From assembly GCF_003096655.1 (NCBI RefSeq), contig NZ_QEKQ01000001.1, positions 1 to 64,000 on the forward strand: a stretch of 64,000 nucleotides of DNA, read 5' to 3'. The translations under genes and the position numbers were made by a program. The notes beneath the pieces were generated by a model. It saw nothing but the letters and a program-made list of their open reading frames with translations. It searched no databases and was not told the origin of the DNA. Source of the DNA: Tamilnaduibacter salinus. Its GTDB lineage: Bacteria > Pseudomonadota > Gammaproteobacteria > Pseudomonadales > Oleiphilaceae. Below are positions 451 to 18,774 of the stretch, piece by piece. Every line of letters starts with the position of its first letter. Within the stretch, counting starts at the first letter, position 1.

Positions 451-1287
451 GTGCGCGCGATGCAGCAGCGAACGTCGATTTCGCAACGCAGGGCCTGTTT
501 CCTCGTCGGGTTATCCCGCGCCTCGTTTCACTATCGCTCCACGGTATCGCAGAGCGACGTGACGCTCTGCGAGCGTATCAGCGCACTGGCTTACGAACGG
601 CGTCGATTCGGTTACCGCCGGGTCCATCAACTGCTTCGCCGGGAGGGCATTCACGTGAACCACAAAAAGGTTTATCGGCTGTACCGCGATGCAGGCCTGG
701 CTGTACCCAAACGCAAGCGCCGCAAAGGCGTTGCGGTGGAGCGACAGCCTTTGGTTCTTCCCGAAGCGGCCAATCAAACCTGGTCGATGGATTTTGTCAT
801 GGATGCGCTGGCGAGTGGCCGGCGTATCAAATGCCTGACCATCGTTGATGACTTCACCAAGGAATGTCTCGACATTCCAGTGGCCAGCGGTATTTGCGGC
901 GACCAGGTCGTTCGTACTCTGGAGGCCATTGCCGCGTTCAGGGGTTACCCTCAAGCGGTCAGAACCGATCAGGGACCGGAGTTTACAGGCAAGGCTCTGG
1001 ATCGGTGGGCTTACGACAACGATGTTGAACTGAAGCTGATTCAGCCCGGTAAGCCCACTCAGAATGGCTACGTCGAAAGCTTTAACGGGAAATTCCGGGA
1101 TGAGTGCCTGAACGAACACTGGTTCCGGGATCTGGCTCATGCCCGTCAGATCATTAGCCAGTGGCGGCGTGACTACAATGAACAGCGACCTCACTCGGCC
1201 TTGAACTACCAGACACCACTGGAGTTCGCTGCTGACTATCGCTGTGGGACGGATGGAACAACGCTAACCGACATTACTAAGCGGTGA
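451..1287 (+). CDS. IS3-family transposase OrfB (DDE integrase)
   Basis: This 278-residue protein carries an N-terminal HTH_21 region and an rve integrase core. The catalytic triad is intact: D114 in WSMDFVMD, D173 in RTDQGPEF and E209 in [10 protein letters not shown], with 35 residues between the last two, the DD(35)E spacing of IS3 enzymes. The frame is -1 relative to orfA and stays open upstream to at least 421, so the active product is probably an OrfAB fusion. The ATG at 451 has no clear ribosome binding site. Nothing suggests inactivation. Confidence 0.9.
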
Positions 1288-1313
1288 CTGGTTAAACAAT
1301 TGGGGGCAGGTCA

Positions 1314-1610
1314 GCGGCGCCGTTGGGGGTTTTTTATTGGCTGCACGAAAGGGATGATCTACGGGGGTGTGAGCCCCGATGCCCGCCAGGGCAGCCAAAG
1401 CACCGCGTTGGCAGGGGCGAACGCCCGGGGCCTCTGCGCCCCGGGCCGGGTCATCGTCGTCGTGCGCAGCACGACCGGCCTGAACCGCCCGTCAGCCTCT
1501 GAATAACTGACCTAAGGCGACACATCGTTGCCGTGCAAGACACTGCCCCGATAACGGCCCATTAGTGGCCGCCAACGCGAACCTCCCCCTTCGGCCTCCA
1601 CCGCCCCGAT
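1314..1610. other. Gene-free, hairpin-rich region right of the insertion sequence
   Basis: No credible gene lies between the insertion sequence and the holD-like gene. The stretch contains a T-run (1330-1335) and several inverted repeats: 1337-1344 with 1391-1398 (8 bp), 1362-1366 with 1374-1378, 1381-1384 with 1389-1392, 1423-1431 with 1438-1446 (9 bp, nearly all G/C), and 1459-1465 with 1469-1475 (7 bp, extended by 1444-1448 with 1476-1480). With the left-hand array this suggests a structured element interrupted by the IS. I do not recognise a known RNA family. Confidence 0.4.
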
Positions 1611-1614
1611 CCTG

Positions 1615-1620
1615 TATACT
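1615..1620 (+). promoter_or_regulatory. Candidate -10 box for the holD-rimI transcript
   Basis: TATACT lies 29 bases before the holD start codon. No good -35 hexamer is seen 16-18 bases upstream, so the assignment rests on the -10 alone. Confidence 0.35.
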
Positions 1621-1648
1621 TTCATCAAATCCCAGAAAACGGCATGCG

Positions 1649-2413
1649 ATGATCCGGACGGAAGCACAACGTCAGTTCTATTTAACGGCCATGGGTGTTC
1701 GCCCTTGGTATGTCCGGTCGTCTTTGCCTGGGGCAGCGACTTCCCGCGCGCTGGATTTCACCGAACCTGAAGCGGTTACCCCGGCCTCAGCGCCACCCAG
1801 TGGCACGGCCCCGTCGGCTCCTTCAACCAGCGACCGGCGTCGAGTCAATCGATTACGGGATATCCGTCAGACCATGAGTGCAGAGGCTGAGACGGTGGAA
1901 GAGCCTCGCGCGTCGGAGGCGACGGTCGAGCCGCCGGCGTCACCAGAGCCTGCGACCCGGTCGGATCATCCACAGCTGGAGGACATCACCTGCCGCCTTG
2001 GGTTCTGGTGGACGCCGACTTGGTGTCTGGTGAGCCTCCTGTCGGACGAAATCTCGGATGACCTGCAGTCCGGCCTTGCAAGGCGTATTCTCGCTGCTGT
2101 TGAGGACGATGCCCCGGAGGAACGGCTTCTGAGCTGGCCGCCATTCTCCAAACGCTCTGTGGTGCGCAGTGAGGGCGCCGAATTCCGGGCGTTGTTGGTA
2201 TCCCTGTCCGATGCGGCCTGCCAAGGGCGCCGCCTGTTAGTGCTTGGGCTGGAGGAAGAACAAACCGCTCACGCCAACGCGATACGGGAGGTGTTAGTCC
2301 CAGAAGAAGCCGTGTCCGTGTCAGGGCCTGCGTTGTCAGAAATGGCCGCCAACCCGGAAGGAAAGCGGGCCCTCTGGCGGCGTTTGCGTGAGGTCTGCAG
2401 GGTGTCGGCATGA
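1649..2413 (+). CDS. holD: HolD-like protein (DNA polymerase III psi subunit family), enlarged
   Basis: Psi links the clamp loader to chi and SSB. Evidence is partly positional: the gene overlaps rimI by 4 bp, as holD precedes rimI in enterobacteria. The N-terminus (YLTAMGVRPWYVRS) resembles the chi-binding peptide of psi, and the C-terminus (GPALSEMAANPEGKRALWRRLREV) matches the pattern of the E. coli psi C-terminus. At 254 residues it is nearly twice the length of E. coli psi. The extra length is a Pro/Ala/Glu-rich, probably disordered linker at about residues 25-110. ATG 1649 is preferred over start codons further upstream because it begins the conserved peptide. The broad family is likely; the exact function is inferred. 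Confidence 0.62.
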   Translation: MIRTEAQRQFYLTAMGVRPWYVRSSLPGAATSRALDFTEPEAVTPASAPPSGTAPSAPSTSDRRRVNRLRDIRQTMSAEAETVEEPRASEATVEPPASPEPATRSDHPQLEDITCRLGFWWTPTWCLVSLLSDEISDDLQSGLARRILAAVEDDAPEERLLSWPPFSKRSVVRSEGAEFRALLVSLSDAACQGRRLLVLGLEEEQTAHANAIREVLVPEEAVSVSGPALSEMAANPEGKRALWRRLREVCRVSA

Positions 2414-13544: not shown

Positions 13545-14402
13545 ATGAGTCGTTTTGACGAGAAGGTTGACGGTGTGCTGTACATTGTCGCCACTCCGAT
13601 CGGTAATCTGGAGGATCTTTCCCGCCGGGCTGTGGCCGTACTCTCTGGTGCGGATGTGATAGCGGCAGAGGACACGCGCCACACCCGTCGGCTGCTTGAT
13701 GCTCTGGGTATTGATGTGCCGATGCTGTCGTTTCATGAGCACAATGAGCGGGAACGGCATGAAGCGATTCTGGATCGGGTGGCGGCGGGCGCGTCGGTAG
13801 CCCTTGTCTCTGATGCTGGAACGCCCCTTATTTCCGATCCCGGCTATGTTCTGGTTCGCGCGGCCAGGGCGCGTGGTGTGCGGGTCTGTCCGATTCCCGG
13901 CGCCTGTGCTGTCGTGGCGGCCCTGTCTGCGGCCGGTCTGCCGACCGATCGGTTTGCCTACGAGGGGTTCCTTCCGGGACGGCGCAAGGCGCGGGATGAG
14001 CGCCTGGCCGCCCTGCGTGACGAGCCCCGGACGCTGGTCTTTTATGAATCCCCTCATCGCATCGCGGGAACGCTGGATGCCATTGTTGAGCATGTCGGTC
14101 CGGAGCGGGAGCTGGTTGTGGCCCGGGAGCTGACGAAAGCTTTCGAGACCTTTTACCAGGGCACCGCGCAGGTTGTTCGCGACCAGATGTTGGCCGATGA
14201 TCATGGCCACCGTGGAGAGTTTGTTCTGATGCTGGCGGGCCAGGTGCCATCGGAAGTGCCGGCGGGCCCGGGGCCAGACGCGGATCAGATGCTACGGGTA
14301 CTGCTTCGGGATCTGCCGGTCAAAAAGGCGGCGCGGATCGCCTCCGAGCTCAGTGGCGTGCCCAAAAACCAGCTTTACCAGAGGGCGCTCGCCCTGAAAT
14401 AA
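13545..14402 (+). CDS. rsmI: 16S rRNA (cytidine-1402 2'-O)-methyltransferase
   Basis: A 285-residue SAM-dependent methyltransferase of the tetrapyrrole-methylase fold. Family signatures are VLYIVATPIGNLEDLSRRAV at the start, AEDTRHTRRLL, LVSDAGTPLISDPGY and FYESPHR. It modifies C1402 of 16S rRNA in the decoding centre together with RsmH, which is encoded nearby in the mra cluster. The divergent lpoA/rsmI pair is conserved in gammaproteobacteria. Confidence 0.96.
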   Translation: MSRFDEKVDGVLYIVATPIGNLEDLSRRAVAVLSGADVIAAEDTRHTRRLLDALGIDVPMLSFHEHNERERHEAILDRVAAGASVALVSDAGTPLISDPGYVLVRAARARGVRVCPIPGACAVVAALSAAGLPTDRFAYEGFLPGRRKARDERLAALRDEPRTLVFYESPHRIAGTLDAIVEHVGPERELVVARELTKAFETFYQGTAQVVRDQMLADDHGHRGEFVLMLAGQVPSEVPAGPGPDADQMLRVLLRDLPVKKAARIASELSGVPKNQLYQRALALK

Positions 14403-14483: not shown

Positions 14484-14490
14484 CGCGCCT

Positions 14491-14851
14491 GAGCTCGCTG
14501 GGCAATCGCCGCTTTGCTGGCCCTCCGGGGTGGCCAAGGGGAGGAAAGTCCGGGCTCCATAGGGCAAGGTGCCAGGTAACGCCTGGGCGGCGCGAGCCGA
14601 CGGAAAGTGCAGCAGAAAGGATACCGCCCGGTCACTGCGGTGATTGGGTAAGGGTGAAATGGTGCGGTAAGAGCGCACCGCGTGGCTGGCAACAGTCCAC
14701 GGCGATGGCAAACCCCACCTGGAGCAAGACCAAATAGGAGTCCGACGGTGCGGCCCGCACTGGACTCGGGTAGGTCGCTTGAGGCCTGTGGTAACGCAGG
14801 TCCTAGATGAATGGTTGCCCCCGACAGAACCCGGCTTACAGGCGAGCTCAT
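14491..14851 (+). ncRNA. rnpB: RNase P RNA, bacterial type A
   Basis: About 360 bases of catalytic RNA that removes 5' leaders from tRNA precursors. The ends form a perfect P1 helix (GAGCTCGC at 14491-14498 with GCGAGCTC at 14842-14849). Conserved regions are plain: GAGGAAAGTCCGGGCTCC near 14535, the GGTAAGGGTGAAA-type core, AGAGCGCACCGC, and the 3' ACAGAACCCGGCTTA. The size and helices match type A RNA of gammaproteobacteria. A pyrimidine-rich tract follows the 3' end and may aid termination. The location between rsmI and mraZ matches the Pseudomonas order. Confidence 0.97.
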
Positions 14852-15044
14852 TCTTCCTTTCTTTTCTGTGACGCCCTCCTGATAGATCAAAAAAATCTGA
14901 TGCTTGAGAGTATTTCTCGATAACCCTCGCACTTTATTGATTTGCGTCGGTTTATCGCCTTCCTGTTTGTGCGTTTTCTCGCCACCTTTCGTTAACTGCT
15001 TGTCATAAAAGGAAGTTTTGCCAGTGCGTCGCCATTGATTGCGC
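14852..15044. other. AT-rich gene-free stretch between rnpB and the mraZ promoter
   Basis: No gene, tRNA or strong terminator is visible. The DNA is much richer in A and T than its surroundings, with small inverted repeats such as AGAT-(N7)-ATCT near 14887 and GAGA-(N4)-TTCTC near 14917. It may act as an upstream promoter or bendable regulatory segment for the cell-division cluster. No specific binding site is assigned. Confidence 0.3.
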
Positions 15045-15073
15045 TTGCATTGGGGATAGTGCATTCCTATAGT
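15045..15073 (+). promoter_or_regulatory. Promoter of the mra/dcw cluster
   Basis: TTGCAT (15045-15050) and TATAGT (15068-15073) are 17 bases apart, giving a predicted start near 15080. The following GTGG array overlaps this start, as expected for a promoter repressed by MraZ. Confidence 0.72.
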
Positions 15074-15136
15074 GTGCAAAAGTGGTAAAAAGTGGTCAGA
15101 AGTGGTTTTTTGTGGTTTTTGAGGGCTGGAAGTGGG
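15071..15136 (+). promoter_or_regulatory. Phased GTGG repeat array, probable MraZ operator
   Basis: AGTGGT occurs at 15081, 15091 and 15101 and TGTGGT at 15111, at exactly 10-bp intervals. AGTGGG follows in phase at 15131 and a partial AGTGTG at 15071. The repeats sit on one face of the helix at the transcription start. MraZ is a DNA-binding repressor known to bind tandem GTGG/TGGG-type boxes upstream of its own gene, so autoregulation is the natural reading. Confidence 0.78.
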
Positions 15137-15203
15137 AGAATCTCCCGTTTTCGTCCCGTCATGATCAGGAGCGCTGCCCCGCAGCGGCATAACGAGTGCG
15201 GCT

Positions 15204-15656
15204 ATGAGCAACTTTCTTGGCAGTCACGCCATCAACATGGATGCGAAGGGGCGCCTGGCGATCCCCACGCGCGTCCGTGAGGAGATGGATCGTGTCTGCG
15301 GGGGTCGCATCGTCCTGACGGCGAATGCCGATGAAGAGCGCTGCCTTCTGGTCTACCCGGAGCCGCAGTGGGAAGAGATCCGTCCTCAGATCGAGGCGCT
15401 GCCCAACATGAACCGCAAAGCCAAGCGCCTGCAGCGCAAAATGCTCGGTCATGCCACGCCACTGGAGCTGGATGGTGCCGGGCGGATTCTGGTGCCCGGG
15501 ACACTGCGCAGCTACGCCGGGTTGGAAAAGAAGCTCATGCTTGTCGGGCAGGGCAAGAAGCTGGAGCTCTGGAGCGAGGAACGCTGGTTCGCCTGGCTGG
15601 ATGATGAAGACGACGGTGATGAGATGCCGCCCGAAATGGAGTCACTGTCGCTATGA
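15204..15656 (+). CDS. mraZ: Transcriptional regulator MraZ
   Basis: A 150-residue protein with two SpoVT/AbrB-like repeats. The paired DxxxR motifs are DAKGR (residues 13-17) and DGAGR (about residue 90). MraZ forms a ring-shaped oligomer and represses the mra/dcw cluster it heads. A phased operator array and promoter lie about 70 bases upstream. It overlaps rsmH by 4 bp. The acidic C-terminal tail ([14 protein letters not shown]) is a little longer than usual. Confidence 0.97.
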
Positions 15657-16606
15657 CCGGGCATGGCCACGCATCGGTCCTGCTCGACCAGGCCGTGGCC
15701 GATCTGGTGACCCGGTCGGATGGCCTCTATGTCGATGGCACGTTCGGTCGCGGAGGGCACAGTCGGTTGATTCTGGAACGACTGTCACCGGAAGGGCGCC
15801 TCATCGGGATTGATAAGGACCCGGAAGCGATTCGGGTTGGCACGGCGCTGGCCTCGGAGGATCGCCGTTTCCGGATCTGCCACGGCAGCTTTGCCGAACT
15901 GGCGGCCCTGTTGGGAGATAGTGACGAGAGCGGCGTGGACGGCGTCCTCCTCGATCTCGGGGTGTCGTCACCGCAACTGGACGACCCCAATAGGGGGTTC
16001 AGTTTCATGCACGACGGTCCGCTCGACATGCGCATGAATCCGCAGCGGTCGCCCAGCGCGGCTGAGTGGCTGAACAGCGCGGGTGAGAAGGAGATCGCGG
16101 ACGTGCTCTGGCAGCTGGGTGAGGAGCGATTCTCCCGTCGGATCGCGAGGGCCGTTGTTGCGCAGCGCCAGGAAGCACCGCTGGCCACCACCCGGGAGCT
16201 GGCGGAACTGGTGGCCAAAGCCGTTCCCAAAAAGGAAAAACACAAGCATCCGGCCACGCGGACGTTCCAGGCGGTGCGGGTCTTTATCAATCGCGAGCTG
16301 GACGATCTGGATGCCGGGCTGGAGGCGGCCGCTGAGGTCCTGCGCCCGGGCGGGCGCCTGGTTGTGATCAGTTTCCACTCGCTGGAAGACCGGCGGGTGA
16401 AACGTTTTATGCGGGACCGTGTGCGCGGTCCCCAGCTGCCGCGCGGGTTGCCCGTGACGGCTGACCAGACAGAAACGCCCTTCCGGCTGGTCGGCAAGGC
16501 CGCCCGGCCGGGGGAAGCCGAAGTGGCCGATAATGCACGGGCTCGAAGTGCGGTCATGCGCGTCATGGAACGCAAGCCGAGTCACTGGGGGGATGCCGAG
16601 TCATGA
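15653..16606 (+). CDS. rsmH: 16S rRNA (cytosine-1402 N4)-methyltransferase
   Basis: A 317-residue class I SAM methyltransferase (MraW). Signatures: [10 protein letters not shown] near the start, the SAM-binding [37 protein letters not shown] and [15 protein letters not shown]. It adds the N4-methyl group to C1402 of 16S rRNA, complementing RsmI. It overlaps mraZ and ftsL by 4 bp each. Confidence 0.97.
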
Positions 16607-16989
16607 GTGCTGTCACGATTGAGAAAACCGCCCAGGGCCGGACGCGGCCGGCGGATCAGGTCCGCGTTGGAGTCAGTCGCGCTCTTCGGCTGTCTAAGCA
16701 GGTGTTCCGTTCACTGGCACAGCGCCAGGTTCTGATTACCGCGGGCCTGGCGATCTGTCTGCTCGTCTCAGCGACCGCTGTGGTATTCAGCTCTCACCAG
16801 AACCGGGTGCTGTTCAGCGAGCTGGCGAGTCTCCAGGAGCAGCGGGATGCCTACCAGAGAGAGTGGAGTCAGCTCCTGCTGGAACAGAGTGCCCTGAGTT
16901 CGCACAGCCGGGTTGAGCGGCGTGCGGTGGACACACTGAATATGACGGTGCCGGACCGCGACGATGTGGTTCTCGTGCCGTCCCATTGA
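16603..16989 (+). CDS. ftsL: Cell division protein FtsL
   Basis: A 128-residue bitopic protein with a cytoplasmic N-terminus, one membrane helix (about residues 46-66, [18 protein letters not shown]) and a short periplasmic coiled coil ([30 protein letters not shown]). The position between rsmH and ftsI is diagnostic, since FtsL is poorly conserved in sequence. It forms the FtsQLB complex that activates FtsWI at the septum. Confidence 0.93.
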
Positions 16990-17034: not shown

Positions 17035-18774
17035 GTGGTGGAGTCGACCCGGAAATGGACATTGATGACGATGATGCGGCGCCTGGTTTCTGCCTGGCGC
17101 TTTGTCTTCGTTGTGAGTGTGTTTCTGGCCGCTGGTGTCACCCTGGGGTGGCGCCTGGTGGATCTTCACGTTGTTGATCAGGCCTTTCTGAATCAGCAGG
17201 GCGAGGTGCGCAGCACGCGAATCGATCCCGTCGAAGCCCATCGCGGTATGCTGACCGATCGCAAAGGACAGCCCCTTGCCGTCAGTACACCGGTGGAAAC
17301 CATCTGGGCCAATCCCCGTGACATCGATGCGGACGACCCTCGCATCGCCCGCGTTGCCCGTGTTCTGGACATCAGCGAAGCCGATCTGCGCCGTCGTTTG
17401 CGCACGCACCAGAACCGCCAGTTCATCTATGTGCGCCGCAAGGTTCAGCCGGAACTGGCGGATGCCGTCATGGCCCAGGACGTGCCGGGATTCCACACCC
17501 GCCGGGACTACCGGCGCTATTACCCGACCGGTGAGGTGTCGGCCCACCTGACTGGTTTCACCAACATCGACGAGCAGGGGCAGGAAGGCATCGAGCTGAC
17601 CTACAACGATTGGCTGAGTGGTCAGGCTGGCGCCAAGCGCGTGGTTCAGGACAACCGTGGCCGTGTGATCAAGGATCTCAGTCTGGTTCGTGAGGCAAAG
17701 CCGGGCAAGGACCTGGCTCTGAGCATCGATCTGAGACTCCAGTACCTGGCCTACCGGGAGCTGAAAGCCGTCGTCCAGGCGCACGATGCCCGTAGCGGAA
17801 CACTCGTCATGCTCGATGTGGATACCGGGGAAGTGTTGGCCATGGTGAACCAGCCTTCCTTCAATCCGAATGACCGGAGTCAGCTTGACCCCAGGCGATT
17901 ACGGAACCGGGCCATCACCGACCTGTTCGAGCCCGGGTCGACCATGAAGCCCTTCAGTGCAACGGCCGCGCTGGAGACAGGGGCATTCACGCCCCGGACC
18001 CGGGTGGAGACCTCCCCGGGTTATCTGCGTTTCGGGCAGTACACCATCCGGGACACGCGAAACCACGGCGAGCTCAGCCTCAGCGAAGTGATCTCCGAAT
18101 CCTCGAACGTCGGCATGAGCAAAGTGGCCGGGGAAATTGGCGGTAACACGATTCGTAACCTCTACTACCGGGTTGGCTTCGGGCAGGCCACGGGCGTGGG
18201 CTTCCCCGGCGAGGCGGTGGGGGTTCTCCCGGCGCCTCCTGAATGGCGACCGGTGGAAGTGGCAACCCTCTCCTACGGCTATGGCATGAGCGTCAATGCC
18301 CTGCAACTGGCGCAGGCTTATATGGTGCTGGCGAACGGCGGAGTGCGGTACCCCATCAGCCTCCTGAAGCAGGATGAGGCCCCGGAAGGCGAGCGAGTGA
18401 TCCCCGAAGCGGTGTCCCGCCAGGTCCGGGGAATGCTCCGGAAAGTGGTGGAAGAGGGTACGGGCCGGCGCGGCGCGCCTGCGATCTACGACGCGGGCGG
18501 GAAAACCGGCACGGTGCATCTGGTCGGCGCCGGTGGGTACCAGAAGAGTCAGTACAAGGCGATCTTCGCCGGCGTTGCACCGGCGGATAATCCGCGGGTG
18601 GCCTGTGTGGTGGCGGTCGACGCGCCCAGTAACGGGGAATACTACGGCGGCGAAGTGGCGGCCCCGGTTTTCGCCCGGGTGGTCAACGACGCGCTGCGGC
18701 TGATGAACGCCCGTCCGGACATCGACGGTACGAGCGTGGCGCAGTCCCCGGTCGATGATGGGGAAAGGGGGTAA
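17035..18774 (+). CDS. ftsI: Septal peptidoglycan transpeptidase FtsI (PBP3)
   Basis: A 579-residue class B penicillin-binding protein with an N-terminal membrane anchor (FVFVVSVFLAAGVTLGW), a PBP-dimer domain and a transpeptidase domain. The active-site motifs are intact: STMK (serine 302), SSN (356-358) and KTGT (490-493). It cross-links septal peptidoglycan with FtsW. The start is taken as GTG 17035 because GGAGAGG lies seven bases upstream; an in-frame ATG occurs about ten codons later. murE follows after two bases. Confidence 0.96.
   Translation: MVESTRKWTLMTMMRRLVSAWRFVFVVSVFLAAGVTLGWRLVDLHVVDQAFLNQQGEVRSTRIDPVEAHRGMLTDRKGQPLAVSTPVETIWANPRDIDADDPRIARVARVLDISEADLRRRLRTHQNRQFIYVRRKVQPELADAVMAQDVPGFHTRRDYRRYYPTGEVSAHLTGFTNIDEQGQEGIELTYNDWLSGQAGAKRVVQDNRGRVIKDLSLVREAKPGKDLALSIDLRLQYLAYRELKAVVQAHDARSGTLVMLDVDTGEVLAMVNQPSFNPNDRSQLDPRRLRNRAITDLFEPGSTMKPFSATAALETGAFTPRTRVETSPGYLRFGQYTIRDTRNHGELSLSEVISESSNVGMSKVAGEIGGNTIRNLYYRVGFGQATGVGFPGEAVGVLPAPPEWRPVEVATLSYGYGMSVNALQLAQAYMVLANGGVRYPISLLKQDEAPEGERVIPEAVSRQVRGMLRKVVEEGTGRRGAPAIYDAGGKTGTVHLVGAGGYQKSQYKAIFAGVAPADNPRVACVVAVDAPSNGEYYGGEVAAPVFARVVNDALRLMNARPDIDGTSVAQSPVDDGERG

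Follow-up and report, generated by a model that had tools for sequence, protein, structure and literature searches.

A helically phased GTGG-box array as a putative extended MraZ operator at the dcw promoter of Tamilnaduibacter salinus

The window analysed here, a 64,000-nt stretch of the Tamilnaduibacter salinus genome (contig NZ_QEKQ01000001.1), contains a regular row of GTGG-type boxes upstream of mraZ. This array is probably an autoregulatory MraZ operator at the dcw promoter, in a form that is extended in this family, and we assign the reading as a whole a probability of about 0.9. The array is real, conserved and mostly known in kind, and its extended form is lineage-specific. The boxes, their period, their conservation, the gene context and their uniqueness in the genome can all be read directly from the sequence. 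‘Family’ refers throughout to Marinobacter and its kin. Feature coordinates are collected in Table 1.

Table 1. Features of the array, its predicted promoter and the neighbouring genes in the window
Feature	Position	Strand	Remarks
rsmI	13545–14402		upstream of array
RNase P RNA gene, complete	14490–14854	+	RF00010, 338 bits; between rsmI and mraZ
Predicted −35, TTGCAT	15045–15050	+	CTTGCAT: 91–100% conservation at each base (113 upstream regions of the family)
Predicted −10, TATAGT	15068–15073	+	17 bp past −35; [TC]ATA[GA]T followed by GTGG within 28 bp in 129/129 unique family regions
Slot 0 box, GTGTG	15072–15076	+	overlaps −10; first two bases largely fixed by the anchor
Box 1, GTGGT, slot +10	15082–15086	+	GTGG at this slot: family 104/113, outside 90/122
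Box 2, GTGGT, slot +20	15092–15096	+	GTGG at this slot: family 109/113, outside 85/122
Box 3, GTGGT, slot +30	15102–15106	+	GTGG at this slot: family 97/113, outside 68/122
Box 4, GTGGT, slot +40	15112–15116	+	family-characteristic: family 96/113, outside only 11/122
Degenerate slot, GAGGG, +49/50	15121–15125	+	variants at the equivalent slot in relatives
Distal box, GTGGG, slot +60	15132–15136	+	recurs in long leaders; also in 5′ arm of predicted hairpin
mraZ, division/cell wall cluster transcriptional repressor, 150 aa	15204–15656	+	PF02381, 102.3 bits (cut-off 23); TIGR00242, 138 bits (cut-off 98.35)
rsmH/mraW	15653–16606	+	PF01795; overlaps mraZ stop
ftsL	16603–16989	+	PF04999
ftsI (PBP3)	17035–18774	+	PF00905 and PF03717

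The array, its promoter and the genes it precedes

The core of the array is formed by four GTGGT boxes on the forward strand, set at steps of exactly 10 bp. A GTGTG lies 10 bp ahead of the first of them, and a GTGGG stands in phase 20 bp beyond the fourth. The partial box named in the initial annotation can be read either as this GTGTG or as the GAGGG that lies 9 bp past the fourth GTGGT and 11 bp before the GTGGG; the coordinates and spacing given there for the four boxes, the in-phase GTGGG and the partial box are confirmed in the window. Searching the window for four GTGGT spaced 10 bp apart and allowing at most three mismatches returned three matches, all of them overlapping placements of the array (0.02 expected by chance; three matches in none of 100 shuffles). 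Across the 3.4-Mb genome, three exact GTGGK boxes at 10-bp steps occur only at the mraZ array, in two overlapping placements. When up to two mismatches are allowed, the 43 matches are fewer than the 63 of a backwards control and therefore no other site stands out; with the triple GTGGK pattern, no further MraZ targets beyond chance were found in the 3.4-Mb genome.

The predicted promoter, TTGCAT-17-TATAGT, is kept in relatives when their upstream regions are compared. It is a weak promoter, its −35 hexamer matching the consensus at three of six positions, and a generic sigma-70 scan did not find a promoter-like site at the array. We infer from the sequence a transcription start near 15080–15081, inside the array and just ahead of the first GTGGT, relative to which the array would span about −9 to +57. 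Counted from slot 0, many relatives also carry a GTGT at about −11, in the promoter spacer (98/129 family regions before the last deduplication), where the window lacks one, and a GTGT at −20 occurs in 49/129 regions of the same set; both may be upstream half-boxes.

Downstream of the array, the first gene is mraZ, followed by rsmH, ftsL and ftsI of the dcw cluster, and the ORF after ftsI looks, from its sequence, like murE. The upstream RNase P RNA gene was the only match in an Rfam search. The mraZ product contains two PF02381 stretches and scores above the cut-offs of both general models (Table 1); it scores below the respective cut-off of each of five narrower NCBIfam MraZ models (NF001475 to NF001483). 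MraZ proteins carry a DXXXR motif in each half, and in the window protein both copies, D13–R17 and D90–R94, are invariant across 15 aligned sequences. The predicted monomer model (mean pLDDT 82.9) matches 1n0e with a Z of 19.6 and an rmsd of 2.6 over 136, and 9sz7 with a Z of 18.6 and an rmsd of 2.5 over 137; as modelled, the window protein has the fold of solved MraZ. The proposal that an MraZ operator lies over the predicted dcw start is well supported by the gene context, the family assignment of the protein, the conserved promoter and the array in relatives.

In 11 of 151 genomes, the family search matched the window MraZ at two or more places. Two such second matches, at L348 (492–1463, reverse strand) and L349 (about 874–1833, forward strand), have E values of 1.7e-14 and 1.8e-13 and encode proteins of ~320 aa with an MraZ-like N-terminal half and an OGFr_N (PF04664) C-terminal half. 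The gene directly before the L348 protein encodes an AAA ATPase, and its L349 counterpart looks alike. The L348 protein falls below the curated MraZ cut-offs (TIGR00242, 34 bits versus 98; Pfam MraZ, 13.8 versus 23), and the L349 protein has no Pfam MraZ match.

Conservation and extension of the array among relatives

Upstream regions were taken from the best 80 of 265 named loci, which were tallied with the family as a block without one-by-one family assignment, and from 71 of 148 family genomes. Regions from the order came from 73 of the 79 genomes with a match (G180, G196, G203, G208, G210 and G231 were left out), those from the class from 73 of 82 genomes (G236, G239, G271, G278, G283, G292, G299, G311 and G323 were left out), and those from the phylum from the 30 best-scoring of 60 genomes. 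The resulting 314 regions comprised 292 unique ones, of which 251 could be anchored and 235 remained after deduplication (113 in the family, 122 outside it). The anchor was defined as [TC]ATA[GA]T followed by GTGG within +4 to +28; where a region offered several candidates, the one with most GTGG at +10 to +40 was taken. No family region failed to anchor; outside the family, 41 of 163 did.

A phased array precedes mraZ in the window and in all 80 of its nearest named loci (the best 80 of 265). These loci are nearly all from Marinobacter, the others belonging to Halovibrio, Mangrovitalea, Hahella, Vreelandella utahensis and an Oleiphilaceae MAG. In their commonest forms, GTGTG, GTGGG, GTGGT, GTGGT and GTGGT/A follow one another every 10 bp, the start codon lying about 70 nt downstream. 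The initial annotation had proposed a box-by-box comparison with relatives and had counted a lack of conservation against the operator; the comparison finds the boxes kept, and the operator is not refuted on this ground.

Among the 235 anchored regions, GTGG has peaks at +10, +20 and +30 irrespective of family membership, family regions showing a further peak at +40 (Table 1); the anchor rule has partly selected the counts at +10 and +20, and slightly those at +30 and +40. Slot 0 is GTGT in 108/113 family regions and 80/122 outside. Regions from outside the family most often have three in-phase GTGG (62/122), with four in 18, five or six in 5 and two or fewer in 37, whereas family regions most often have four (67/113), with five in 16, six in 7, seven in 1 and three or fewer in 22. 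The per-slot and per-region counts together indicate a class-wide plan of GTGT plus three boxes, to which the family adds a fourth. The family spacer after the +10 box is 92–100% A or T at five positions, and such A/T-rich spacers may help bending.

The family has two leader classes, one of about 70 nt (most Marinobacter) and one of 100–205 nt (38/113). The window belongs to the long-leader class (100 nt or more), whose members often carry added boxes near +51, +60/61 or +70/71, a further GTGG at +60 or +61 among them. Boxes from +45 onward had no role in anchoring. In the 38 long leaders, 39 of the 47 GTGG between +45 and +90 are in phase, compared with a mean of 4.6 of 16 (highest 13) in 2000 shuffles of the same segments. 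The corresponding figures outside the family are 33 of 50 for the downstream GTGG and 8.2 of 30.4 for shuffles. Both comparisons overstate the number of events because the sequences are related and non-independent. The excess outside the family indicates that array extension occurs beyond it too. Sorted by position, the long-leader GTGG (n = 38) number 8 at +49 to +52, 5 at +54 to +57, 24 at +59 to +62, 0 at +64 to +67, 6 at +69 to +73, 0 at +75 to +78, 2 at +79 to +83 and 0 at +89 to +94; each of the five off-phase ones at +54 to +57 overlaps an in-phase one as GTGGTGG. No GTGG occurs at +59 to +62 in 14 of the 38 long-leader relatives, and short leaders have one near +50 in 1/75 and near +60 in 0/74, so the distal box is non-essential to the operator.

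The slot near +50 is variable in sequence. It reads GAGGG in L033, L034 and L044 and GGGGT in L227 and L228; in L067, L097 and L102 it is a GTGGT at +51, and these three loci have GTGT followed by six GTGG in a row. The fullest array, in L234, has GTGT at 0 and GTGG at 10, 20, 30, 40, 51, 60 and 70, which makes eight helical slots, and L236 has a GTGG in a ninth slot at +79, after two weak slots. In several species one step is a base longer (10-10-10-10-11-10), which brings the period nearer the true helical repeat.

Leader structure and other readings of the boxes

A leader hairpin of 12 pairs is predicted at 15127–15153 (forward strand; TGGAAGTGGGAG/CTCCCGTTTTCG), with the whole distal box in its 5′ arm, and folding gives L033, L034 and L099 stems of equal layout and different letters. 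The operator might accordingly consist of the first three or four boxes only, with the GTGGG at 15132 kept for the hairpin arm and the GTGTG at 15072 for its share in the −10, an arrangement that we regard as tenable but doubtful. In the best folds of the 24 long-leader members with a GTGG at +59 to +62, this GTGG is fully paired in 10, partly in 10 and not at all in 4. The absence of distal boxes from short-leader members also agrees with a hairpin role, and the GTGTG has two bases in common with TATAGT. Segments from the 38 long leaders fold somewhat better than their shuffles (mean z −0.72, 7/38 below −2; upstream control 0.18, 1/37 below −2), suggesting that RNA structure may account for part of the distal conservation. 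This folding signal is weak, however, with seven segments below −2, a z of −0.79 for the window's own segment and a z of −1.75 for its whole leader, which 11 of 200 shuffles equalled or bettered. A hairpin has no need of helical phase, yet the large majority of distal GTGG are in phase, and slot 0 is occupied by GTGG instead of GTGT in 15/122 regions outside the family and 5/113 within it, which argues against its being kept simply as a −10 element. An RNA structure in the leader may help to explain why the distal box is kept; it leaves the helical phase unexplained.

The regular 10-bp unit could also be that of a plain tandem repeat devoid of binding function. This is exceedingly improbable: the spacers differ among species while GTGG is kept at 91–99% per base (family, slots +10 to +30), and the array recurs before mraZ, with the same design in E. 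coli. When 398 phylum-sample genomes were searched for five GTGG at strict 10-bp steps, matches came from one genome (G338), and the backwards control matched a few. The nine G338 matches are one perfect tandem repeat, and such a true 10-bp repeat shows identical spacers. Control of the cluster might instead lie with a G-quadruplex formed by the G-rich leader or promoter sequence, as has been claimed for mraZ of S. aureus, with a published G4 downstream of PmraZ (PMC11796246, in excerpt). We consider this very improbable for the window: in the four core boxes the G runs have only two bases each, with about eight between them, and what is conserved is GTGG, including its T, at a 10-bp step, whereas a quadruplex could form without helical phase.

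Proposed action of MraZ and comparison with known operators

MraZ is a ring oligomer of AbrB-like domains. In the extended operator that we favour, this ring would read one GTGG-type box per helical turn, which would set consecutive MraZ subunits on one face of the DNA. The regular phase of the boxes is compatible with a ring-shaped MraZ wrapping DNA, as the initial annotation had suggested from the sequence. Bound MraZ would extend from the −10 across the start site to about base 55 of the transcript, and would block or stall RNA polymerase, so that mraZ and the genes that follow it would come under feedback control. So understood, the family operator would have a GTGT in slot 0 that overlaps the −10, then four strong boxes and a weak slot, and often a distal box at +60. 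The distal box, present in many long-leader members, would add contacts or stability, and the extra slots might engage more subunits of one ring or a second ring, or might only raise the local affinity.

It is conceivable, though unlikely, that the extended arrays are sized to the MraZ ring, up to eight slots wrapping most of it in a nucleosome-like manner or holding two rings. The division genes would then be repressed more tightly, or in two steps, compared with the known three- and four-box operators. The ninth slot of L236 counts against a strict maximum of eight. The MraZ repressor is found widely, in front of division genes, and the way in which its ring recognises boxes set in a straight line is, to judge from entry records, only now being solved (PDB entries, February 2026). 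Operators that carry from three to seven GTGG on the same promoter form a natural series and offer a ready test of how many subunits engage and of what extra boxes contribute. The titles and abstract openings of the literature searched make no mention of MraZ arrays of more than four boxes or of Marinobacter MraZ, or of a lineage-specific array extension and its phase.

E. coli K-12 has three GTGGG at 10-bp steps before mraZ (locus L347, at 491, 501 and 511). The operator of E. coli MraZ at Pmra, reportedly described by Eraso and colleagues in 2014, resembles the window in having GTGGG-type boxes at 10-bp steps between the promoter and mraZ; it has three boxes, whereas the window has GTGTG, four GTGGT and a distal GTGGG. 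E. coli MraZ represses its own cluster (Eraso et al. 2014, as cited in an excerpt of PMC8475190). In Burkholderia cenocepacia, MraZ shifts a 250-bp fragment by EMSA; the fragment was then recognised to contain a set of four repeats, each of 7 nt and separated by 3 nt, that lies past the −10 and spans the start site (PMC7761207, in excerpt). Like that dcw operator, the window has four repeats with a 10-bp period, which lie past the predicted −10 and over the predicted start, and it extends the array with slots 0 and +60, the excerpted B. cenocepacia account making no mention of further phased boxes.

Mycoplasma MraZ sites are given, in excerpts of the respective papers, as (AAAGTGK N3)3 (PMC5282649) and as AAAGTG[T/G] repeats (PMC8475190), and the record of the cryo-EM entry 9sz7, released on 2026-02-04, describes M. 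genitalium MraZ ‘in complex with 4 box promoter’. As far as these sources go, the Mycoplasma sites share with the window the 10-bp period and the GTG core, MraZ controls a dcw cluster there, as it probably does in the window, and they permit T as the fourth base, as in slot 0 of the window; they have three to four boxes and come from a different phylum, whereas the window array is longer. The earlier statement that the boxes outnumber the few repeats usually described holds in part. The four exact boxes equal in number the repeats reported for B. cenocepacia and the ‘4 box promoter’ of 9sz7, but with its conserved GTGTG and a distal in-phase GTGG that recurs in 24/38 long-leader relatives, the array exceeds in length the form usual across the class.
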